Positions 6,270-16,178 of a DNA stretch of 64,000 nucleotides are shown here, piece after piece (position 1 is the stretch's first letter; each line of letters begins with the position of its first letter). A program made the position numbers and the translations under genes. Origin of the DNA: Pyruvatibacter mobilis (GTDB lineage Bacteria; Pseudomonadota; Alphaproteobacteria; CGMCC-115125); the NCBI RefSeq assembly GCF_012848855.1, contig NZ_CP051630.1, positions 2,955,501 through 3,019,500 on the forward strand, given 5' to 3'. The notes under the pieces were generated by a model, which had not been told where the DNA came from, made no database searches, and saw only the letters and a list, made by a program, of their open reading frames with translations.

Positions 6270-6344
6270 GCGGGCGTAGCTCAGGGGTAGAGCACAACCT
6301 TGCCAAGGTTGGGGTCGTGAGTTCGAATCTCATCGCCCGCTCCA
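6270..6344 (+). tRNA. tRNA-Gly (anticodon GCC)
   Basis: The complete cloverleaf can be folded by eye. Acceptor stem GCGGGCG (6270-6276) pairs with CGCCCGC (6334-6340), followed by discriminator T and an encoded CCA. The anticodon arm is CAACC / loop TTGCCAA / GGTTG, with anticodon GCC at 6302-6304. The T loop is TTCGAAT. GCC reads GGC/GGU glycine codons, the major ones in this GC-rich genome. Confidence 0.97.
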
Positions 6345-6414
6345 ATTCTCCTACAACCGGTATTCGTTTCACATTCGCAGGTATAGCTGCGGATGTGCGC
6401 CAGACCCTGCGTGT

Positions 6415-6858
6415 CTAGTAGCGCGGCCCTTCACCACGCAAGGTGTAGAGCGTGTCGCTGACGCTTTGAGCCGAGTCTGTCAGTTTTTCCTCGGTTGCCT
6501 GCTGGGCCTTGATCCACATGGGGTAGGCCTCTTCGAGCTTTTTGCGGCCGGCATCGGTGATGCGGATCGGTTTGGCGCGGCCAGAGGTCTCGGTCATGCG
6601 TTCAACCAGGCCCGCGGCCTCAAGCGGTTTCAGGTTGCGGGACAAAGACGTGCGTTCCATCGACAGGACGTCCGCCAGCGCCGAGATGGCGACAGGCTTC
6701 AGCCGGGCGATCGAGATCAGCAGGGTGAACTGGGTGATGGTGAGACCGCTCTGCCTGAGCGCTGTGTCATAGCGCCGGGTAACGGCGCGGGCGGTGCTCA
6801 GCGCGCGCAGGGCCAGGCAGCGGTCGCCCACATCCTCGATGATCTGTTCGGTGTCCAT
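6415..6858 (-). CDS. MarR-family transcriptional regulator
   Basis: A 147-residue winged-helix protein of the MarR type: recognition region ISALADVLSMERTSLSRNL (about 58-77), wing with RAKPIRITDAGRK. MarR proteins are usually dimeric repressors released by small hydrophobic or phenolic ligands. The start at 6858 was chosen because the upstream extension runs over the operator region. It is transcribed divergently from the RND–LolA-like–DUF1302 operon; two near-identical palindromes lie in between, so it probably represses both itself and the transporter. Confidence 0.88.
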   Translation of the reverse strand: MDTEQIIEDVGDRCLALRALSTARAVTRRYDTALRQSGLTITQFTLLISIARLKPVAISALADVLSMERTSLSRNLKPLEAAGLVERMTETSGRAKPIRITDAGRKKLEEAYPMWIKAQQATEEKLTDSAQSVSDTLYTLRGEGPRY

Positions 6859-6861
6859 TAA

Positions 6862-6906
6862 GTGTAAATACACGCTTGAAGGTCGTCTCACAACGTGTAT
6901 ATACAC
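6862..6906. promoter_or_regulatory. Pair of palindromic operators for the MarR regulator
   Basis: GTGTAAATACAC (6862-6873) and the perfect 12-bp palindrome GTGTATATACAC (6895-6906) differ at one position and start 33 bp apart, about three helical turns. They lie between the divergent MarR and RND start codons; the first is three bases upstream of the MarR start. This layout fits two dimers on the same face of the DNA controlling both genes. Confidence 0.8.
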
Positions 6907-6944
6907 TTCATGACACAGTATCACGCAGTTGGGATCGGGGCGGC

Positions 6945-9344
6945 ATGACCGGCATATCGAGAGCAGAGAGATTTTTTGAGGGCGCGCTGCGCTATTGGTG
7001 GCTGGTGCTGCTAGCAGGCGTTGCGCTGATCGCAGCCACGGCGATGTCGCTGCCCATGCTCACCAAGGACACGTCGGCGGACGCGTTCATCGACGCGGAT
7101 GAGCCGGCGCTTGTCTACAAGGAGCGGGTTGAAGAGATCTTCGGGCTGACGGACCCGATTGTGATCGCGGTGATCAATCGCGGCGAGGACGGGGTGTTCA
7201 CGCCGGACAATCTGGCGCTGGTGGAGCGCCTGACGCGGGCGGTGGAGCGGCTGCCGCAGGTGGACCCTGACCGGGTGGTGAGCCTGGCGACCGAAAACAA
7301 CATCGTCGGCACCGAAGACGGGCTGATCGTTGAGGGGTTTCTTGATCCGGATACGGAAGGCTTTCAAGCACCGCTGGGAACCCGGGCGCGGGCCGAGGAA
7401 GTCAGCGCAGCGATTGCCGATTTTCCGCTTTATCAGGGCGGGCTTGTGGGTCGGCGCGGCACAGCGACCCTGATCATCGCCGAGATCCTTGATGATGACC
7501 TGGCAACCGCTGCTTATGACGCGGTGATGGCGCTTGTGGCGGCTGAGACCATTCCCGAGGGCACGCAGGTGCATGTGGCCGGGGAAGGTGCCGTGGCGGG
7601 GTATCTGTCGACCTATATCGACAATGATGCCAGCCGGCTCAACCCGATGGCGGGGCTCATCATCACCATTGTGCTGCTGGTTGCTTTTGTGAGCCTGCGG
7701 GCGGCCATTCTTCCCAACATCATCGTGCTGGCGACGGTGCTTGGCAGTTTCGGCCTGATGGCGGCGTCGGGCACGTCCTTCTTTGTCATCACCAACGGGC
7801 TGGTGGTCAATCTGATCGGCATCGCGGTTGCGGATTCGATCCATATCCTGTCGGCCTATTACACCGTGCTGCGGGATGATCCGGCGATCAGCAAACGCAA
7901 TGCGGTGGCGCGGGCGATGGCGCAGATGTGGCGTCCGGTGACGCTGACCACCATCACCACGGTTGCGGGCTTTCTGGCGTTGTCCGCCAGCTCCGTCATG
8001 CCGCCGATCAGCGCGTTCGGCCTGTTCGGCGCGCTGGGTGTGGCGCTGGCCTGGCTTTATTCGATGACGCTCCTGCCGGCGCTTCTGACGGTGTGGCCGA
8101 CGCGGCGGATCCCCTATCCGTTCGGGCAGCGCAAGGACGGGACGCAGCGGCGTAACGCTGCAGAGCGGCTGATGACGGCGCTGGGGCGCGTGGTCCTGGC
8201 ATCACCCAAGCCCGTGGTGGCCGCAGGCGGGGTGCTCACCTTGGTTGCCCTGGCGGGGGCCTCGCAGCTGGTCGTCAATGAGGACCGCATCGAAAACTTC
8301 AAGCCGTCCGAACCGGTCTATATGGCTGACAAGGCAATCAATGCGGATACGGACGGGATCTACAATCTCGACGTGCTGATAGAGACGTCGCGGCCGGGCG
8401 GGCTTTATGACCCGGAGATGCTGCGGCGGATCGAGGCGCTGCAGGTCTTCATGGAAAGCCTTGAAGGCGTCGGCGGCACCACGTCCATTGTGGATTATGT
8501 GAAGCAGCTGCACCGGGCCGTGAATGAAGGCCGGCCTGATTTCTACACCATTCCGGATGATGCGGATCTCGTGGCGCAGCTGTTCTTCCTCTATGGCGCC
8601 AGCGCTGACCCGACCGACTTTGAAGAGGAAGTGGACTTTGACTATCAGCGCGCGCTGGTGCGGGCTCAGGTGTCAACCGGTCAGTATACGAACAATAAAG
8701 AGATCGTTCCGGCGCTCGAGGACTATCTGCGCACGACCTTCAACGACGAGGCTGCCACGGCGACAGCCACGGGCCGGATCACGGTGAACTATTACTGGGT
8801 GCGCGGGATCGACCAGTCGACATTGCTGTCGGTGCTGCTGGCCTTTGTGGCTGTTACCGTTGCGGCCATCATCGTGTTCCGGTCGCTGACGGCGGGGCTT
8901 CTCGCGGCGATGCCGGTGGGGCTGTCGGTGCTGCTGGTCTATGCGGTCATGGGGTTTGCGGGGATCCCGCTTGGGGTCGGCACGTCGATGTTTGCGGCGA
9001 TCGCCATCGGCCTCTCCATCGACTTTGCGATCCACGCGCTGGACCGGATCAGGGATATCGGCCGCAGCGAAGGTCTCGGGCCGCAGGCGCTGATGGCGCT
9101 TTATCCGGAGACGGGCCGGGCGCTGTTTTTCAACTTCATTGCCGTTGCCGGCGGCTTCGGTGTCCTGATGACGTCGGACGTGCCGCCGCTGATCAAGTTC
9201 GGCAGCCTGGTTGCTGTTGCTGTCAGCGTCGCGTTCATCGCTTCCGTCACGCTGCTGCCGGCTCTTGTCACTCTTCTGAAACCGAAAGCGCTGCTTGCGC
9301 CCGAACCGAAGGAGGCCGCCCATGCGTCCTGCCCTCAAACTGCT
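6945..9344 (+). CDS. RND-superfamily / MMPL transporter
   Basis: About 800 residues with the classic RND layout: TM1 (about 18-37), a large periplasmic loop, a block of five TM helices (about 235-400), then the same pattern again. The MMPL-like repeats carry acidic membrane residues in GIAVADSIHIL and AIGLSIDFAIH, the region used for proton coupling. This branch is usually linked with lipids or other hydrophobic molecules rather than drugs, and lacks the membrane-fusion partner of AcrB-type pumps. The start at 6945 places the N-terminal helix as usual; an in-frame ATG at 6876 lies in the operator. The stop overlaps the ribosome-site region of the next gene. Confidence 0.87.
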
Positions 9345-10140
9345 TAGTGCTGCCGTCATCGCTGCCACGGCATCGTCTGCCCCTGGCCTGCAGGCCGGTG
9401 CACAGGACGCCATGACCGGGGATGAGATCATTGCCATGGTCAATGCGCGTCCCGATGGTGTGCAAGTCACGCGCAACTTCACGCTGGAACTCACCAACCG
9501 CCAGGGCGATACGCGGCGGGAGGAAACACACGCCTACCGGCGCTATTTCGGCGAGGAGAAACGGACGATCATTTTCTATACGGAGCCGACGCGGGTGCGC
9601 GGGACGGGGTTTCTGACCTTCGACTATCCGGACCCGTCCATCGATGACGACCAGTGGCTCTATCTGCCGGCGCTGCGCAAGGTGCGGCGAATCTCGGCAT
9701 CAGACCGGGGTGATTTCTTTCTGGGTACGGACTTCACCTATGAAGAAATCAAGAAGGAGCAGAAGGTGGAGGCATCCGACTATGTCTTTACCGCGAAGGG
9801 CACGGAGATGGTCGACGGGCGGGAGCTGCTTGTGGTGGAAGGCGTGCCGTCCACAGATGCTGTGGCCCGTGAGCTGGGGGTAAGCCGCGTGGTCTGGCGT
9901 GTCGACCCTGAGATGCAGCTCAGCCGCAAGACGGTTTATTATGACCAGAACGGCAATCTGGCCCGCACGGTGACGATTGAAGGGGTTGAGATCATCGACG
10001 GTTTCATCACCACAACGCAGCTTCTGGCGGAAAACCACAAGACGGGTCACAGCTCGCGGATCAGCTTCTCCGGGACCGACTATGAGGCGGACGTCCCGGA
10101 GAGCCTGTTCAGCCAGGCCCGGTTGCGGCGCGGCCTATGA
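9322..10140 (+). CDS. Outer-membrane lipoprotein-sorting-like (LolA-fold) periplasmic protein
   Basis: A 272-residue protein with a Sec signal peptide (about 1-28, cleavage near LQAGA). The mature part shows the pattern of the 'outer membrane lipoprotein-sorting protein' family: MVNARPDG, then TRVRGTGFLTFDYP, then DDQWLYLPALRKVRRIS. The family shares the half-barrel lipid-binding fold of LolA/LolB. It begins inside the end of the RND gene with AGGAGG ahead of the ATG, and its stop overlaps the next start, so the three proteins are likely made together. A shuttle role carrying a hydrophobic cargo between the RND pump and the outer membrane is inferred. Confidence 0.83.
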   Translation: MRPALKLLSAAVIAATASSAPGLQAGAQDAMTGDEIIAMVNARPDGVQVTRNFTLELTNRQGDTRREETHAYRRYFGEEKRTIIFYTEPTRVRGTGFLTFDYPDPSIDDDQWLYLPALRKVRRISASDRGDFFLGTDFTYEEIKKEQKVEASDYVFTAKGTEMVDGRELLVVEGVPSTDAVARELGVSRVVWRVDPEMQLSRKTVYYDQNGNLARTVTIEGVEIIDGFITTTQLLAENHKTGHSSRISFSGTDYEADVPESLFSQARLRRGL

Positions 10141-11501
10141 CCCGGCGTTTCCCACATTCACCAGGGGCCAGTGCTGCTTGCGTGGCCTGGGCGGGGGCGG
10201 TGATTGCCGCTGCCGCCCTGCCGGGCGGTGTGGCGCGCGCGGCATCTTCCGGGCTTGAGCTGCGGGGGGAAGCCACCCTGCGGACGGCCATCGAGATTGA
10301 AGACGGCGATGTTCAGCTTGGTGAGCTTCTGGTGGAGCCGGAGCTTTCCGGCGAGGTGACACCCGAGATCAGCTGGACGGTGATTGGCCGGCTGCGGATT
10401 GACGCAGCCGATGAGCTGGAGCCGGGCGACCCCGGCCCGCAGGACGGGTTCCGGTCGCCGGTCAATCGGCGGCTGTTCATCGGTGACACGACGGATCTCG
10501 AGTTGCGGGAGGCCTATGCGGATATTTACGCGGGTCAGTGGTTTGTCCGGGCCGGCAAGCAGCAGGTGGTGTGGGGCCAGGCCGACGGGTTGCGGGTGCT
10601 CGACCAGGTCAACCCGCTGAGCTTCCGCGAGTTCATCATGGGGGACTTCGAAGACCGCCGCATCCCGCTGTGGATGGTCAATGCGGAGCGCAGTTTCGGC
10701 GGTGTGACGGCGCAGTTCCTATGGATCCCCGACCACAGCTATGACGAGGTGCCGGCGGACGGCACCTATGCCGTGACCTCGCCGCTGCTGCGGCCGCAGA
10801 TCAGGCCCCAGCCGGGGCAGGCTGTGCGGTTTGCCGAGGCGGACAGGCCGGACAGGCTGATCGTGGATGATGATTACGGGGTGCGTCTGACGGGGTTCAG
10901 CGATGGCTGGGACTGGTCGGTCAACGCGCTTTATGCCTATGGCGACGGGCAGGTGCTGCGGCAGGCGCGGACGCCGCAGGCCGTGACGGTGACGCCGGAC
11001 TATGAACGCACCTTGCTGACCGGCGGGTCTGTCTCGAATGCCTTCGGCAAGGCGACGGTGCGGGCCGAAATCGGCTATGTGACGGACAGGTTTGTCCTTA
11101 CAAATGATCCTCAGGACACGGATGGTATTTTCGAGACAGGTGAGGCCAGTGGTGTCATCGGTCTTGATTATCAGGTGGACGCGGACCTGCTGGTGAGCGG
11201 GCAGGTCTTTGCGGGTGTGCTGACCGATGATGCGCCGGGGCTTGTGCGCGATCAGGTGACGGGCACCGCGAGCCTGCTGGTGCGGCAGGAGTTCCTCAAT
11301 GACACCGTGGAGGTGGAGGGGCTGTTGCTGCAGAGCCTGAACCAGGGAGACGGGCTGGTGCAGCTCGGCGCGACGTACAAGCTCACAGACGCTGTGACAC
11401 TGGCTGCGGGCGCGGATGTCTTTTATGGCAACCGGCAGGGCCTATTCGGCCAGTTCGGTGAGGCAGACCGGGTGACCCTGGCTGTGACCTATGGATTTTA
11501 A
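10137..11501 (+). CDS. DUF1302-like outer-membrane beta-barrel protein
   Basis: A 454-residue protein with a signal peptide (about 1-36) and a body of alternating short beta segments rich in aromatic and acidic residues, ending in VTLAVTYGF with a terminal Phe as in outer-membrane barrels. Segments such as GKQQVVWGQADGLRVLDQVNPL match the DUF1302 family. The ATG overlaps the previous stop (ATGA), a sign of translational coupling. DUF1302 genes are repeatedly found with RND and LolA-like genes, for instance in steroid and lipid catabolic clusters; the cargo is unknown. Confidence 0.82.
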   Translation: MTRRFPHSPGASAACVAWAGAVIAAAALPGGVARAASSGLELRGEATLRTAIEIEDGDVQLGELLVEPELSGEVTPEISWTVIGRLRIDAADELEPGDPGPQDGFRSPVNRRLFIGDTTDLELREAYADIYAGQWFVRAGKQQVVWGQADGLRVLDQVNPLSFREFIMGDFEDRRIPLWMVNAERSFGGVTAQFLWIPDHSYDEVPADGTYAVTSPLLRPQIRPQPGQAVRFAEADRPDRLIVDDDYGVRLTGFSDGWDWSVNALYAYGDGQVLRQARTPQAVTVTPDYERTLLTGGSVSNAFGKATVRAEIGYVTDRFVLTNDPQDTDGIFETGEASGVIGLDYQVDADLLVSGQVFAGVLTDDAPGLVRDQVTGTASLLVRQEFLNDTVEVEGLLLQSLNQGDGLVQLGATYKLTDAVTLAAGADVFYGNRQGLFGQFGEADRVTLAVTYGF

Positions 11502-11529
11502 AGCCGGGTTTTAGCGCTACGCGCCGCCT

Positions 11530-11946
11530 CTAGCTGTCGAGCAGCAGGGCAGGGTCGACGGAAACGGGGCGGGTCATTTTCTCGACGCCGTTTTCGGTGG
11601 CGACGATTGTTTCCGTCGCATCGATGTGTTTCTGGCCCCAGAGGGTGAGCGCCTTCATGACCGGGATGAGGGAGAGGCCCTTGTCGGTAAGCGCATATTC
11701 GTAGCGCACCGGACGCTCCTGATAAGGCCGCTTTTCGATGATGCCATGATCTTCCAGCTTCTTCAGGCGGTCGGTCAGCGTGTTGGTCTGAATGTGTTCG
11801 GCGGACTGGGTGAACTTCTTGAAGGTGCTGGGGCCGAAATAGATCAGGTCGCGCACGATCAGGAGGGTCCACTTGTCGCCTAGCAGGTCCAGCGAGCTGG
11901 CGAGCGGGCAGGACGATCTTTGCTTGAGAGTGCTGGGCTCGGTCAT
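11530..11946 (-). CDS. HxlR-family transcriptional regulator
   Basis: A 138-residue winged-helix protein with the HxlR signature: Cys13 near the N-terminus (SSCPLASSLDLLGDKWTLLIVRDL), then LKKLEDHGIIEKRPYQERPVRYEYALTDKG. Members respond to aldehydes or redox signals; HxlR itself activates formaldehyde fixation and YodB senses quinones via the N-terminal Cys. It reads divergently from the alcohol dehydrogenase operon and probably controls it. Confidence 0.88.
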   Translation of the reverse strand: MTEPSTLKQRSSCPLASSLDLLGDKWTLLIVRDLIYFGPSTFKKFTQSAEHIQTNTLTDRLKKLEDHGIIEKRPYQERPVRYEYALTDKGLSLIPVMKALTLWGQKHIDATETIVATENGVEKMTRPVSVDPALLLDS

Positions 11947-12106
11947 GGGGCTTAGCTGCGTTTTCTTCGTTCCAAATCAAGTGCTGCGGCGCTGCCGGGG
12001 CGGGTGGATTGTGCGGATTTTCAGCCGCCCGACCAGAAAAGTCTTGTGCATCCGAAAACCTCCATGCTAGGTCGCTTGTGTTTTTAAAGTGACTCGCTTG
12101 CGATTT

Positions 12107-12120
12107 ACAAGTCGCCTTGT
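12107..12120. promoter_or_regulatory. Candidate HxlR operator
   Basis: Inverted repeat ACAAG-TCGC-CTTGT in the gap between the divergent HxlR and alcohol dehydrogenase genes. A further half-site-like CTTGTG lies at about 12075. Assignment to HxlR rests only on position and symmetry. Confidence 0.45.
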
Positions 12121-12165
12121 CGAGCACCGTACCGCGATGCCTTCGGGGCGTCCATGGAGGGCCTT

Positions 12166-13215
12166 ATGCGCAGCTTGTTTTTTGAAGACGTGAACCGGCT
12201 TGGGTGGCGGGACATGCCGATGCCGCGGCCGCAGGCGGACCATGAGGCCGTTGTGCAGACAATTGCGGCGACGGCCTGCGTGGTCGACAACATGGTGATC
12301 AAGGGGGTGACGCCCATGGAGCCGCCTTTCGCACTCGGCCATGAGGCGGTGGGCCGGGTCATTGACATGGGTGACGCTGTGACCGGGCTTGCAATCGGCG
12401 ACGTGGTGTCGATCCCCAATCACCGGACCTGCGGCAGCTGCCGGTCCTGCAAAAACCACGACCCTCTGCATTGCGAGCAGGAAGACGCGCCGTTTCCGCT
12501 GCTGCCTGCCTATGGCACGCCGGATGCCTATGGGTTTGGCGGCATGTTCAGCGAAGCGTTCCGGGTGCCGTTTGCGTCGCATGCGCTGGTGAAGGTTCCC
12601 GATACGATTGACCCGCTGGCGGCGGTGGCGGCCGGTGACACGCTGACCGATGCATGGCAGGCGACGGTGCCGCATATCCGCAAGACGCCGGAGGCGCGGG
12701 TGCTGATCACCAGCAATGCGGGCTACGGGCTTTATGCGGCGCAATGGGCGCTGGCGGCGGGCGCGGTCGAAGTCCTTTATGTGGATGACGACCCGACGCG
12801 CATGGCGGTGGCCAAGAAGATTGGCGCGACGACGCTGCAGTGGGAAGAGGGGCTGGAGGTGCCGCCGGTCTACAATGTGATCGTCAATGAGCGCCAGGGG
12901 GCCGAGGCACTGCGGTTCTGCCTGCTGGCGGCCGCGCATGGGGCTGTTGTCGAGAATGTCGTCATCTATCTGGAGGACGTGCCGTTTCCGCTGTTCCAGA
13001 TGCACTTCTCCGGCGTGACCTTCCGCTCGTCCTTCTGTGCCACACGGCTCTATCTGCCCGAGGTGATCTCGGAACTGGAGGCGGGCACGATTGATCCGCG
13101 CGTTGTCGAGTCAGAAATCTTCACCCTGGATGACGCCCCGGACCGTCTCCTCGAGCAGAGCCACAAGCCGATCCTGCTGTTCGATGAAAGCCTGCGTGCG
13201 GAGCCTGCGTCTTGA
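12166..13215 (+). CDS. Zinc-dependent alcohol dehydrogenase (MDR superfamily)
   Basis: A 349-residue medium-chain dehydrogenase. Catalytic zinc ligands Cys38 and His59-Glu60 (GHEAVG) are seen, and the structural zinc loop has Cys89, Cys92, Cys95 and Cys103. A glycine-rich segment AGYGLYAAQWALAAGA marks the NAD(P) fold. The position after the catalytic Cys, normally Gly-Thr/Ser-Asp, is Val-Val-Asp, so the proton-relay Ser/Thr is missing. The start at 12166 is preceded by GGAGGG; an ATG four codons earlier has no such site. First gene of an operon with GST and a thioesterase, facing the HxlR regulator. Confidence 0.85.
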   Translation: MRSLFFEDVNRLGWRDMPMPRPQADHEAVVQTIAATACVVDNMVIKGVTPMEPPFALGHEAVGRVIDMGDAVTGLAIGDVVSIPNHRTCGSCRSCKNHDPLHCEQEDAPFPLLPAYGTPDAYGFGGMFSEAFRVPFASHALVKVPDTIDPLAAVAAGDTLTDAWQATVPHIRKTPEARVLITSNAGYGLYAAQWALAAGAVEVLYVDDDPTRMAVAKKIGATTLQWEEGLEVPPVYNVIVNERQGAEALRFCLLAAAHGAVVENVVIYLEDVPFPLFQMHFSGVTFRSSFCATRLYLPEVISELEAGTIDPRVVESEIFTLDDAPDRLLEQSHKPILLFDESLRAEPAS

Positions 13216-13823
13216 TCCTGCTCTACACGGAGGCGTCCCCGTTCGCCCGCAAATGCCGACTGTGCATCGCGGAGCTGGGTGCTGGGCAGGACATTGCCCT
13301 GCGAGACGTTGGGGCGGTCAGCCCGCTTGCAGCGAATGCAGCCGCCAGCGCGCAGGCGCCGCTGGGCAAAATCCCGGTGCTGGTACGGCCGGGGCAGGCG
13401 GCGCTCTACGACTCACCGGTGATCTGCGAATACCTTGATGCGGTGTGGCAGGGCAGCCTGTTTCCTGCAGACGGCGAGGCGCGATGGCGTGCCCTGGCCC
13501 TTCAGGCCCTGGCGGACGGGGCAATGGAGACAGCCGTCGCCCTCCGCTATGAGGCTGTATTCCGGGGCAACGGGTCCGGCGATGATCCGTGGGTCGTGCG
13601 CCAGACGGCACGCCTCACTTCCGCCGTGGACGCGATGGCGCGGGCCGTGGCGGATTTCGCGCCCGCTCCCACCATCGGGGAGCTCTCCGTTGCCTCGGCG
13701 CTTGGCTATCTCGACCTGCGCTTTGAAGAGATTGCATGGCGCCGCGGGCAGGCTGCGCTGGCGGCGTGGTTCGACAGCTTTGCCGCCCGGCCATCGATGC
13801 AATCAACAGCACCAACACTCTGA
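13212..13823 (+). CDS. Glutathione S-transferase
   Basis: A 203-residue GST: thioredoxin-fold N-domain beginning ILLYTEASPFARKCRL, with the GSH-binding LGKIPVL and DSPVICEYLD segments, and an all-alpha C-domain. It starts with TTG that overlaps the stop of the alcohol dehydrogenase gene (TTGA), suggesting translational coupling. The linkage to a dehydrogenase and an HxlR regulator suggests a detoxification or aldehyde pathway, an inference from position. Confidence 0.82.
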   Translation: MILLYTEASPFARKCRLCIAELGAGQDIALRDVGAVSPLAANAAASAQAPLGKIPVLVRPGQAALYDSPVICEYLDAVWQGSLFPADGEARWRALALQALADGAMETAVALRYEAVFRGNGSGDDPWVVRQTARLTSAVDAMARAVADFAPAPTIGELSVASALGYLDLRFEEIAWRRGQAALAAWFDSFAARPSMQSTAPTL

Positions 13824-13851
13824 CCAACATCACACCAACAGGAGATGGACC

Positions 13852-14295
13852 ATGAACCTGGCTGAAATGAGCGGCCTTGACCTGATGCGGCTGGGCGTGA
13901 GCCTGCCGGGCAATATGGGTGACCAGGGCATTGCCAGCGTCATTCCCATGAAGATCATCGAAGCGGATGAGGGGCGGGTGGTGTTTCTCGCCACCGCCGA
14001 CGCCCGCCATACGAACCCGCTTGGATCCGTACACGGAGGATTTGCGGCAACCGTCCTGGATTCGGCAACGGGCTGCGCGGTTCACACGCTGCTGCCTGCG
14101 GGCGTGGGTTTCGGGACGGTCGATCTCAACGTCAAGATGATCCGGCCGGTTCCTTTCGAGCAGCAGATGCGGGCGGTGGGCGAGGTCATCGACCGGACGC
14201 GGTCGCTTGCCATCTCGGAGGCGACGCTGACGGATATGGACGGAAAGATCTTCGCCCATGCGTCGGCCACGTGCCGGATCATCACCCCGTCGTAG
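13852..14295 (+). CDS. PaaI-family acyl-CoA thioesterase (hotdog fold)
   Basis: A 147-residue single-hotdog protein with the PaaI/YdiI hallmark NPLGSVHGGFAATVLDSATG, whose HGG and Asp lie at the thioesterase active site, followed by TVDLNVKMIRPV. These enzymes hydrolyse aryl- or medium-chain acyl-CoAs. Start chosen from GGAGATGGACC directly upstream. Third gene of the plus-strand operon with the dehydrogenase and GST; downstream it faces the FAD monooxygenase on the other strand. Confidence 0.87.
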   Translation: MNLAEMSGLDLMRLGVSLPGNMGDQGIASVIPMKIIEADEGRVVFLATADARHTNPLGSVHGGFAATVLDSATGCAVHTLLPAGVGFGTVDLNVKMIRPVPFEQQMRAVGEVIDRTRSLAISEATLTDMDGKIFAHASATCRIITPS

Positions 14296-14363
14296 GCCGG
14301 AACGATCCCGCAAAGCCCGTTCGTCGGTGCTCTGCTGCCCGGGACGCAGAAGCCGGGGCGGTG

Positions 14364-15560
14364 TCAGGGTCGGGTGTCTGCGACGACGTCGTAGCCGTAG
14401 ACCCAGTCCTGGCGCATAAGGCCAATGGAGGGGGCGATACGGCCGGCGAGCCACATGGGGCCGTAGGTCTTGAGCCTGCCGAGGGCAGTGCGCTGGTGGA
14501 AGGTTTTCGCGTTGGCGCGGGAGCCGGCCTGGACGGCGGTGGCGCGGGCTTGGCGCCTTGCCTGATAGGCCGTGAGGGCGCCGGGCACGTCAGTGTCGCC
14601 AGAGAGGCAGGCCGCCAGGGCCCAGGCGTCTTCGATGGCCATGGCCGCACCCTGGGCCATGAAAGGCAGCATGGGGTGGGCGGCATCGCCCATCAGGGCC
14701 ACGCGGCCATCGGTCCAGGTGGTGAGGGGCGGGCGGTCGAACAGGGCCCAGCGGAACAGGCCGTCGGCTTCCTCGATCAGCCGGGTAATGATGGGGTGCC
14801 AGCCGGTGAAGTCGGCCAGGGCCTCCTCGCGCGTGCCGGCTTCGGTCCAGCTTTCGGTTGTCCAGTCGTCCCGCTCCACGACGGCCACGAGATTGGCCAG
14901 CGCACCGCCGCGCAGGCGATAGGTGACGGCGTGCTTGCCGCGTCCCATCCAGGCACAGGCGACGGGCGGGGGGGTGTCCGCACCAAGCCGGTCAACCGGC
15001 ACCACGGCGCGCCAGGCGACGTTGCCGGTGAAGGCGGGTTTGTCCGGCCCGAGCATGCAGGTGCGGATGGCGGAGTGAATGCCGTCGGCACCGATAAGGA
15101 CATCGCCGCTGAGTGTCTCCCCGGTTTCAAGCACTGCCGTCACGCCCGCGCCGTCCTGCCCGTAGCGTGTAACAGCCGTGCCGAGGCGGAGTGCACCGGG
15201 GGCGCGGCTGTCGAGCTGCTGGGCGAGACAATCCAACAGGTCGGCGCGGTGGATATGGAGATAGGGGGAGCCCCACCGGTCCACCGCGGTTTTGCCCAGT
15301 GGCGCGTGGAGAAGGCGCATGCCGCTTTCGCCCATGCGGATCTCGATGCCGTCCGGCGTAAACCCCGTTGCGGCCAGCGTCCCGTCCAGACCCAGGGCCT
15401 CGAACACCTTCATGGCGTTGGGGCTGAGCTGCAGGCCCGCCCCGACTTCGGCGAGGTCAGGCGCCTTTTCCAGCACGGTGACGTCCCAGCCATGGGCGCG
15501 CAGGCACAGGGCTGCTGTCAGCCCGCCAATGCCGCCACCGGCAATGAGCGCTTCTGGCAT
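14364..15560 (-). CDS. FAD-dependent monooxygenase (salicylate hydroxylase-like)
   Basis: A 398-residue class A flavoprotein monooxygenase: FAD dinucleotide fold GGGIGG (8-13), the DG motif region GADGIHSAIR, and the second FAD motif GDAAHPMLPFMAQGA. Closest in pattern to 6-hydroxynicotinate/salicylate-type hydroxylases, which hydroxylate aromatic rings with NAD(P)H. The start at 15560 places the FAD motif correctly. It is the last gene of an XdhC–MocA-like–monooxygenase operon, a context that suggests hydroxylation of a heteroaromatic, but no molybdenum hydroxylase subunits are nearby. Confidence 0.85.
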   Translation of the reverse strand: MPEALIAGGGIGGLTAALCLRAHGWDVTVLEKAPDLAEVGAGLQLSPNAMKVFEALGLDGTLAATGFTPDGIEIRMGESGMRLLHAPLGKTAVDRWGSPYLHIHRADLLDCLAQQLDSRAPGALRLGTAVTRYGQDGAGVTAVLETGETLSGDVLIGADGIHSAIRTCMLGPDKPAFTGNVAWRAVVPVDRLGADTPPPVACAWMGRGKHAVTYRLRGGALANLVAVVERDDWTTESWTEAGTREEALADFTGWHPIITRLIEEADGLFRWALFDRPPLTTWTDGRVALMGDAAHPMLPFMAQGAAMAIEDAWALAACLSGDTDVPGALTAYQARRQARATAVQAGSRANAKTFHQRTALGRLKTYGPMWLAGRIAPSIGLMRQDWVYGYDVVADTRP

Positions 15561-15599
15561 CTGGTCTTCGTGCTCCCTCTTCGCGATCCGCACCGCAGA

Positions 15600-16178
15600 C
15601 TACTCCGACATATCATCCCTTGTGTCGATGTCGATGGCCTGGCGGGGGGTGAGCGGGACTGTTGCCGTGTGCGGCAGGTCGAGAAAGACGCGTTTGCCGC
15701 CCTGGTCTCCCTCCAGCCGGGCAAGGTGCGGGAAGGCGGTGCGGCGGAACAGCATGGGCGGCAGCGGCGTGGCTCCGGCCGTGCTTGCCACGGCGTCGAC
15801 GCCTTCAGTCAGGCGGGCCAGCATGGACGTCAGGTGAGACAGGGGCACATGGGGCATATCGGCCAGCAGAATGAGCGCTGCCTCGACGCGGGTGTCCGAC
15901 AGGTGCCTGATGCCGTGGGCCAGCGATGAGCCTTGCCCCTGATCCGCATGCGGATTGATCTGGGTATCTATGCCGTTGTCGCTGAACAGGGATGCGCGGG
16001 CCGGTGCGTGTTCGGGAATGATGGCGAGGGTGGCCGCTGCGTTCAGCGCGGCTGCGAGGCGGGCGCTATGGGCGGCCAGCGGCAGGCCCCCGACCTCATG
16101 CAGGAGCTTGTCGTCCGGGCCGAAACGGCGGGAGGCACCGGCTGCGAGGATCAGGACGCCCAGGCGCGCGGGTGTCAC
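15600..16178 (-). CDS. MocA/MobA-like nucleotidyltransferase
   Basis: A 192-residue NTP transferase: VLILAAGASRRFG (8-20), catalytic Lys24 in DDKLLHEVGG, and the metal-binding LLADMPHV. Such proteins attach CTP or GTP to molybdopterin to form the cofactor of xanthine dehydrogenase/CODH-type enzymes. It overlaps the end of XdhC by four bases, so the two are translationally coupled, a pairing known from molybdenum-hydroxylase maturation. Confidence 0.86.
   Translation of the reverse strand: MTPARLGVLILAAGASRRFGPDDKLLHEVGGLPLAAHSARLAAALNAAATLAIIPEHAPARASLFSDNGIDTQINPHADQGQGSSLAHGIRHLSDTRVEAALILLADMPHVPLSHLTSMLARLTEGVDAVASTAGATPLPPMLFRRTAFPHLARLEGDQGGKRVFLDLPHTATVPLTPRQAIDIDTRDDMSE

Follow-up and report, generated by a model that had tools for sequence, protein, structure and literature searches.

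The 64,000-nucleotide stretch of Pyruvatibacter mobilis DNA analysed here (contig NZ_CP051630.1, positions 2,955,501 to 3,019,500; hereafter the window) carries a compact cassette in which the gene of a MarR-family regulator is divergent from a row of three genes, encoding an RND/MMPL transporter, a LolA-like protein and a DUF1302 protein (Table 1). All four proteins exceed the curated Pfam cut-offs, and the four-gene layout with its facing MarR gene, as given in a preliminary description of the locus, is borne out by the sequence and by Pfam alike. The same description counted overlaps of 23 and 4 nucleotides. These stand as well: the RND and LolA-like genes overlap by 23 nucleotides when the RND stop codon is excluded and by 26 when it is included, and the LolA-like and DUF1302 genes overlap by 4. 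The MarR gene begins with the ATG at 6858, upstream of which no Shine-Dalgarno-like sequence is apparent, and the LolA-like gene with the ATG at 9322, directly 3′ of AAGGAGG. For the RND gene, a mechanical call of open reading frames (ORFs) gave a TTG start at 6876; since this codon lies between two palindromes and the ATG at 6945 gives the better family fit, the TTG was dropped for the ATG.

Table 1. Features of the cassette and its surroundings, numbered from the first nucleotide of the window (aa, amino acids).
Feature	Position	Strand	Remarks
MarR-family regulator, 147 aa	6415..6858	-	PF12802 1.7e-10; PF01047 6.8e-10
Operator-like palindrome 1, GTGTAAATACAC	6862..6873		palindrome between the divergent MarR and RND starts
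Operator-like palindrome 2, GTGTATATACAC	6895..6906		palindrome overlapping the -10 of a weak candidate promoter for RND
RND/MMPL (HAE3-like) inner-membrane transporter, 800 aa	6945..9347	+	PF03176 MMPL 6.4e-36
LolA_like protein, 272 aa	9322..10140	+	PF17131 1.8e-46
DUF1302 protein, 454 aa	10137..11501	+	PF06980 4.6e-15
tRNA-Gly (GCC)	6270..6344	+	the flank common to three congeners ends here
Variable segment with the cassette	6356..16174, approximate		other DNA here in G001 and G003 and, over 2.7 kb of contig, in G002

The transporter matches the MMPL family (PF03176) over two stretches, with 124.4 bits against a cut-off of 20.5. Its best NCBIfam match is TIGR00921, the HAE3 subfamily model; because the cut-off of that model is missed (208.1 versus 351.9 bits), we call the protein HAE3-like and not HAE3. 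The cut-offs of the HpnN models are also missed (99.8 versus 751.85 bits and 55.8 versus 1100), and the BstA model gives 28.9 bits against a cut-off of 1400. The core of the protein aligns with drug, hopanoid and siderophore transporters, with HpnN and MmpL proteins among its relatives. Conserved residues include His300 and, close to the tenth hydrophobic helix, Asp693 and His697; in an alignment of 58 rows, in which three seed proteins are counted twice, Asp693 is found in 53 and His697 in 52 of the 53 rows having a residue there. As a conserved acidic residue of a central membrane helix, Asp693 may serve as a proton relay. Work on RND pumps has mostly concerned adaptor-plus-TolC tubes, and among the families found in the cassette there is neither an HAE1 tripartite-pump adaptor (membrane fusion protein) nor a TolC-type channel.

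The LolA-like protein matches PF17131 with 158.6 bits (curated cut-off, 30), and its N-terminus, judged by eye, resembles a signal peptide, so that a periplasmic location may be assigned to it by inference. The classical LolA family is not among its Pfam matches, and the match to DUF1329 is partial, covering positions 126-208 of 368. A sequence search of solved structures gave 9tp6 as the nearest (E 1.2e-35), besides 4z48 and 3bk5. The structure model, from which only the agreement with PF17131-like structures is used, gave the same picture: among the entries listed, VIA-align put at the front 4z48, a DUF1329 family protein (Z 13.7), and 9tp6, which is LolA3 of Porphyromonas gingivalis (Z 13.2) and, we guess, the product of the PG1175-PG1181 operon of that species. 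Classical LolA structures scored lower (Z about 5 to 6, with E. coli LolA at about 5), and the kinship to classical LolA would therefore be one of fold only.

The DUF1302 protein exceeds its cut-off with 56.1 versus 23.2 bits (PF06980). It has a signal-peptide-like N-terminus, again by eye, and ends in Phe, as do 58 of the 64 profile-matched ORFs of at least 350 amino acids, that of the window included. A C-terminal Phe is, we presume, a sign of an outer-membrane protein, and this protein would be an outer-membrane barrel. The search for a solved relative gave nothing up to E 1 with the single sequence, and with a profile of 36 barrels a single match at E 0.84, taken as chance. An AlphaFold2 model built from three sequences had a mean pLDDT (predicted local distance difference test) of 31.5 and was set aside. 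At other loci of the same genome (L001, L002, L003, L008 and L009) DUF1329 is present at full length in three genes and DUF1302 in two; one pair is adjacent, in L009.

When genome contigs, one genome per GTDB species, were scanned with the RND protein as the query, two orthologous cassettes were found, one in Henriciella pelagia LA220 (L056) and one in a metagenome-assembled genome labelled Neptuniibacter (L055). The RND proteins of both are 72% identical to that of the window, and both cassettes also carry MarR, LolA-like (71 and 73%) and DUF1302 (60%) genes. The 26- and 4-nucleotide overlaps are identical in both, and the surroundings differ.

More broadly, LolA_like (E <= 1e-15) is present in 55 of 289 genomes of the class, with 76 matches, and absent from 234. 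The regions around 75 LolA_like matches, excluding the window's own and one from the congener G002, were classified by adjacency (same strand, at most 700 nucleotides apart, or at most 2500 for an RND gene downstream). Conserved synteny had been named in the preliminary description as a check, and RND-LolA-barrel in that order recurs beyond chance, in 36 of the 75 regions, as counted with profiles that were trained on the window and ortholog proteins and then on the census itself and are biased towards the pattern. Among these 36, the barrel of L059 is a fragment at a contig end and that of L110 lies 613 nucleotides away. One further region (L100) has RND and LolA fused, followed by the barrel; Pfam confirms two MMPL stretches and LolA_like in a single frame of 1044 amino acids, and a DUF1302 match barely above the cut-off follows. 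In 7 regions RND-LolA is found without a recognised barrel (3 of them at a contig end), in 6 the RND gene lies downstream of LolA_like, in 13 LolA is accompanied by FtsX permease(s), an ABC ATPase and a barrel, and in 3 LolA-barrel stands without a recognised engine. In all, the RND gene adjoins LolA_like, or is one gene off on the same strand, in 50 of the 75.

The census is supported by a search from the RND side, since the two agree. The RND protein was compared with 398 genomes of the phylum, two candidates per genome being scored; matches at E <= 1e-60 occurred in 52 genomes, 39 of them in one family. With the window's own locus set apart, 29 loci were retained, each with up to 1.5 kb per side (L152 and L166 reach a contig end); the RND gene has LolA_like beside it in 26 of them and a DUF1302-like ORF in 22, and 5 show a MarR match. 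Gene order at these loci is often LolA-RND-barrel. One region, L184 (G470), has two back-to-back cassettes, RND-LolA-MarR-LolA-RND-barrel, with the MarR gene between.

The pairwise distances of the three proteins were compared over 38 sets (the window, L055, L056 and 35 of the 36, L059 being omitted). They correlate with r values of 0.968, 0.964 and 0.946; none of 999 label permutations gave values as high, the best reaching 0.33. Co-inheritance of the three genes as a unit is thus supported, and so is a fit of the predicted proteins to three envelope layers. The proposal in the preliminary description of one protein per layer is upheld in this sense, with locations that are themselves predicted.

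The region between the MarR and RND genes contains two palindromes of the GTGTATATACAC type. A candidate RND promoter, TTGAAG at 6876 followed after 16-18 nucleotides by TATATA or TATACA, has 8 of 12 matches; since the promoter scan is at shuffle level (1 site per 6 kb, on the minus strand, versus 1.1 in shuffles), we regard this candidate as weak. Palindrome 2 overlaps its -10, an arrangement that would suit simple repression. The orthologs share these sites: L055 has two GTGTATATACAC-type sites between MarR and RND, one of them imperfect, and in L056, whose MarR and RND genes are separated by a 4HBT thioesterase gene (9308-9916) and lack the divergent arrangement, GTGTATATACAC-type sites precede each of the two. 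MarR genes adjoin both of these closest cassettes, and their products are 53% and 44% identical to the MarR of the window. Within the 3.33 Mb genome, the palindrome pair with its spacing (at most 3 mismatches) occurs in a single place, with none in the reversed control, and the 14-base form AGTGTATATRCACT with one mismatch likewise in a single place, with a control of 0; more degenerate sites would be missed by these searches. Because the pair is unique in the genome, the MarR regulator appears to act locally. Control of the cassette by MarR through the paired palindromes is supported by this pattern of sites, though as a prediction.

As for the engine, Pfam confirmed proteins of the FtsX/ABC type in place of RND in four regions, recognising two permeases and an ATPase in L114, a permease together with an ATPase in L128, and one permease each in L112 and L119; the other such census regions rest on our own profiles. 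The order is LolA-FtsX-FtsX-ABC-barrel in 8 regions (L112, L114, L115, L117, L120, L122, L123 and L124) and ABC-FtsX-LolA-barrel in 5. The barrels of these 13 regions are weak profile matches (E 2e-27 to 2e-6), and in the three regions scanned with Pfam (L114, L119 and L126) none was named. The window cassette itself has no FtsX-type permease or ABC ATPase. It shares with LolABCDE a LolA-type fold, and the 13 of 75 census regions have FtsX/ABC in place of RND; it differs in that its engine is an RND protein and its outer-membrane partner a barrel and not LolB. Since FtsX/ABC proteins replace RND beside the same shuttle family, the Lol comparison is more than an analogy. The preliminary description had spoken of an Lpt/Lol-like pathway. 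The Lol part gains from the LolCDE-type FtsX/ABC exchange, and the natural fusion of RND and LolA speaks for the pathway in general; for the Lpt part we found no support, although Lpt genes were not searched for.

What, then, might the cassette do? The arrangement is real and recurrent and is probably an inducible, shuttle-based exporter. Where they have been characterised, the relatives of the RND protein are exporters, the molecules moved by RND proteins of the MMPL/HAE3-like class are small and hydrophobic, and acyl chains are bound by proteins of the LolA fold. With modest confidence, we are inclined to read the cassette as a mobile, self-regulated, trans-envelope export system for hydrophobic or amphipathic small molecules, of which the cargo and the direction are inferred. 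MarR would repress its own gene and the operon through the two GTGTATATACAC-type palindromes until released by binding an inducer. The RND protein, proton-driven if it behaves as its family does, would pick up the substrate in the inner membrane or in the outer leaflet of that membrane, the LolA-like protein would ferry it through the periplasm, and the DUF1302 barrel would release it at the outer membrane or through it. Such a line would probably serve to rid the cell of a hydrophobic compound that is toxic or in excess.

It is also possible, and here we are somewhat more tentative, that the cassette belongs to a widespread, undescribed class of engine-exchangeable trans-envelope hydrophobe exporters. 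In such a class, the PF17131 shuttle and the barrel would be constant, and the shuttle would be loaded by an RND protein that runs on protons or else by a LolCDE-like transporter that runs on ATP; members would often have their own MarR or TetR sensor and would pass from genome to genome, in this case into a tRNA-Gly (glycine transfer RNA) hotspot. In the titles and abstract openings of the papers listed, with few subscription journals among them, we found no published description of an RND/ABC exchange beside PF17131 and a barrel, nor any paper that combines any two of LolA-like, FtsX and DUF1302.

The nearest characterised system is AmeABCD of Castellaniella defragrans. As far as the published account goes, its single cassette likewise encodes an HAE3-type RND protein, an outer-membrane protein of the DUF1302 family and, for the periplasm, a member of the LolA superfamily; the system is inducible and has hydrophobic substrates, and its RND gene is the last of the row. 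Deletion of ameABCD is reported to raise Nile Red accumulation and to lower monoterpene tolerance (PMC6394551). In Thalassolituus oleivorans, TOL_3187, an MMPL protein joined to a LolA-like domain, is described as 42-fold up on the n-C28 alkane, and TOL_3188, a predicted porin next to it, as expressed only there (PMC6304351). This parallels the L100 fusion and the gene order of the window; it differs in that one fused protein is involved and the porin is without a recognised domain. Its authors propose export of the porin. The statement in the preliminary description that no cargo is generally assigned is therefore too strong, since the accounts of AmeABCD (monoterpenes) and of TOL_3187/3188 (a long alkane) give leads.

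Other published systems are less close. In the P. gingivalis PG1175-PG1181 and Prevotella intermedia operons, an MMPL protein adjoins an outer membrane lipoprotein-sorting protein and there is a local regulator; however, that regulator is of the TetR/AcrR type, there are extra ABC ATP-binding proteins, and induction is by low iron, as the source summarises them (PMC10434189). The Pseudomonas putida proteins PP_0765, PP_0766, PP_2018 and PP_2019 (DUF1302, DUF1329, a periplasmic protein and an efflux transporter) have been proposed to form one system, which differs in occupying, by its gene numbers, two separate loci and in being tied to growth on Tween 20 (PMC10866462). BstABC sterol transporters combine an RND protein with periplasmic and outer-membrane-associated lipid binders, but BstB and BstC are reported to come from other families (PMC10942540). 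A highly expressed cluster of DUF1329, YCF48-related and MMPL proteins is described in a benzene-degrading culture (PMC13101534), and a DUF1302/DUF1329 pair within a phenol hydroxylase cluster (PMC7012976).

The cassette could also be read the other way round, as an import or catabolic supply route in which the barrel, the LolA-like protein and the RND protein bring a hydrophobic growth substrate inwards or retain it in the periplasm. The variable segment does carry an alcohol dehydrogenase, a thioesterase and an FAD (flavin adenine dinucleotide) monooxygenase gene; on the other hand, no catabolic family is prominent beside the cassettes at large, and characterised RND relatives export. The published reports point both ways. 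PP_0765 and PP_0766 are given as required for growth on Tween 20 (PMC10866462) and the Thalassolituus pair responds to an alkane, as noted above (PMC6304351), whereas the ameABCD mutant accumulates more dye, as an exporter mutant would (PMC6394551). Taken together, we consider import rather unlikely.

Supply of an endogenous lipid, such as a hopanoid, a pigment or an unusual fatty acid, to the outer membrane is unlikely too. Its appeal lies in the kinship of the RND protein to HpnN and MmpL proteins and in the report of LolA2/LolB2 in flexirubin loci (PMC11885536). A patchy distribution within one genus and a dedicated MarR are contrary to a house-keeping lipid, no lipid-making family is prominent nearby, and the RND protein misses the HpnN cut-offs. 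The binding of acyl chains by LolA-fold proteins would suit such a supply. As to protein sorting, in which the LolA-like and RND proteins would help a lipoprotein, or the barrel itself, into the outer membrane, the LolA fold family and the proposal of the TOL_3187 authors speak for it, but it is very improbable, for the cassette is without a fourth gene able to encode such a lipoprotein, the cargoes of this RND class are small and hydrophobic, and the assembly of barrels is the task of BAM.

Several observations nevertheless weigh against hydrophobe export by the cassette as outlined above. The shuttle of AmeABCD, AmeB, is described as a DUF1329 protein of 451 amino acids (PMC6394551), and that of the window is a PF17131 protein with partial DUF1329. 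For the fourth Ame protein, AmeC (COG4447), the neighbours scanned offer no equivalent: of the 10 proteins from the cassette and its surroundings that were scanned, none gave a COG4447/YCF48-type match and, because the three genes overlap, no such gene can lie between them. The P. putida and Thalassolituus relatives are reported as needed for, or induced by, growth on a hydrophobic compound, which fits uptake equally well (PMC10866462, PMC6304351). The genome itself holds no evidence of a cargo; the HxlR regulator, alcohol dehydrogenase, glutathione S-transferase (GST), thioesterase and FAD monooxygenase genes of the segment at most hint at the handling of xenobiotics. The model of the LolA-like protein is of low confidence (mean pLDDT 53.9), and in it the hydrophobic alternation, taken as a proxy for the cavity that the preliminary description asked for, shows a difference above 2 in 3 of 10 strands. 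PF17131 (E <= 1e-15) also occurs in 2 of 14 control genomes, one being that of Methanosarcina acetivorans, an archaeon without an outer membrane. If kinship is assumed, LolA3 of Flavobacterium johnsoniae may be relevant, in that it is reported to have a more polar binding site and a deletion without phenotype (PMC11885536). Finally, neither engine nor barrel was found by the profiles in 9 of the 75 census regions, and the distance correlation ignores species relatedness.

The recurring unit is partly known; the present analysis contributes a count of its synteny, the exchange of the engine for FtsX/ABC proteins, the MarR operator-like sites common to the orthologs and the position beside tRNA-Gly. 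Should the pairing of a LolA-fold shuttle and a barrel with an RND protein here, and of the same shuttle family with an ABC transporter elsewhere, hold true, bacteria would own a general shuttle-based route that moves hydrophobic compounds through the envelope. Thanks to the fusion, the shared operator-like sites and the large number of compact cassettes, the idea is open to direct test, and it might find use in work on solvent tolerance and in hydrocarbon biotechnology.

The surroundings of the cassettes were scanned for 40 of 43 upstream neighbours (two very short ones and one very long one were removed by hand), for 32 of 37 downstream neighbours (the final five of the list were removed) and, in a second flank set, for the 67 nearest of 184 genes, picked by hand. 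TetR_N is found in 17 of the 40 upstream neighbours and in 5 of the 67. Every family other than TetR is confined to at most 3 members of a set; in the second set, 3 of 67 were reached by GST, cytochrome c, DUF1971 and pseudouridine synthase each. That TetR alone recurs nearby suits a sensor-plus-exporter unit.

In the window, the cassette is followed within the variable segment by genes for an HxlR regulator, a zinc alcohol dehydrogenase, a GST, a 4HBT thioesterase (13768-14295), an FAD monooxygenase and a MobA-like protein. Gene order was compared in four genomes of the order, all of one genus, that of the window included. On the upstream side, the three congeners (G001, G002 and G003) resemble the window as far as the end of the tRNA-Gly gene, and none of them has a match to the stretch 11530-14295. 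In G001 and G003, synteny returns near 16.2 kb, with other DNA between the flanks, about 15 kb and 42 kb, respectively. The G002 contig ends 2.7 kb beyond the tRNA without a match; absence is less certain there, the assembly being in 740 contigs and 81% complete. Another G002 contig has a distant RND-LolA-barrel set, with a LolA 28% identical to that of the window. No second tRNA-Gly copy was found within the window's own segment, and no integrase among the proteins scanned, which do not represent every ORF. We read the segment as probably gained at a tRNA hotspot, the alternative being loss in the congeners. Separately, the G003 insert contains two partial copies of the tRNA-Gly 3′ part (L143, 10160-10223 and 14614-14673), not called as tRNA genes, a pattern such as site-specific integration would leave.

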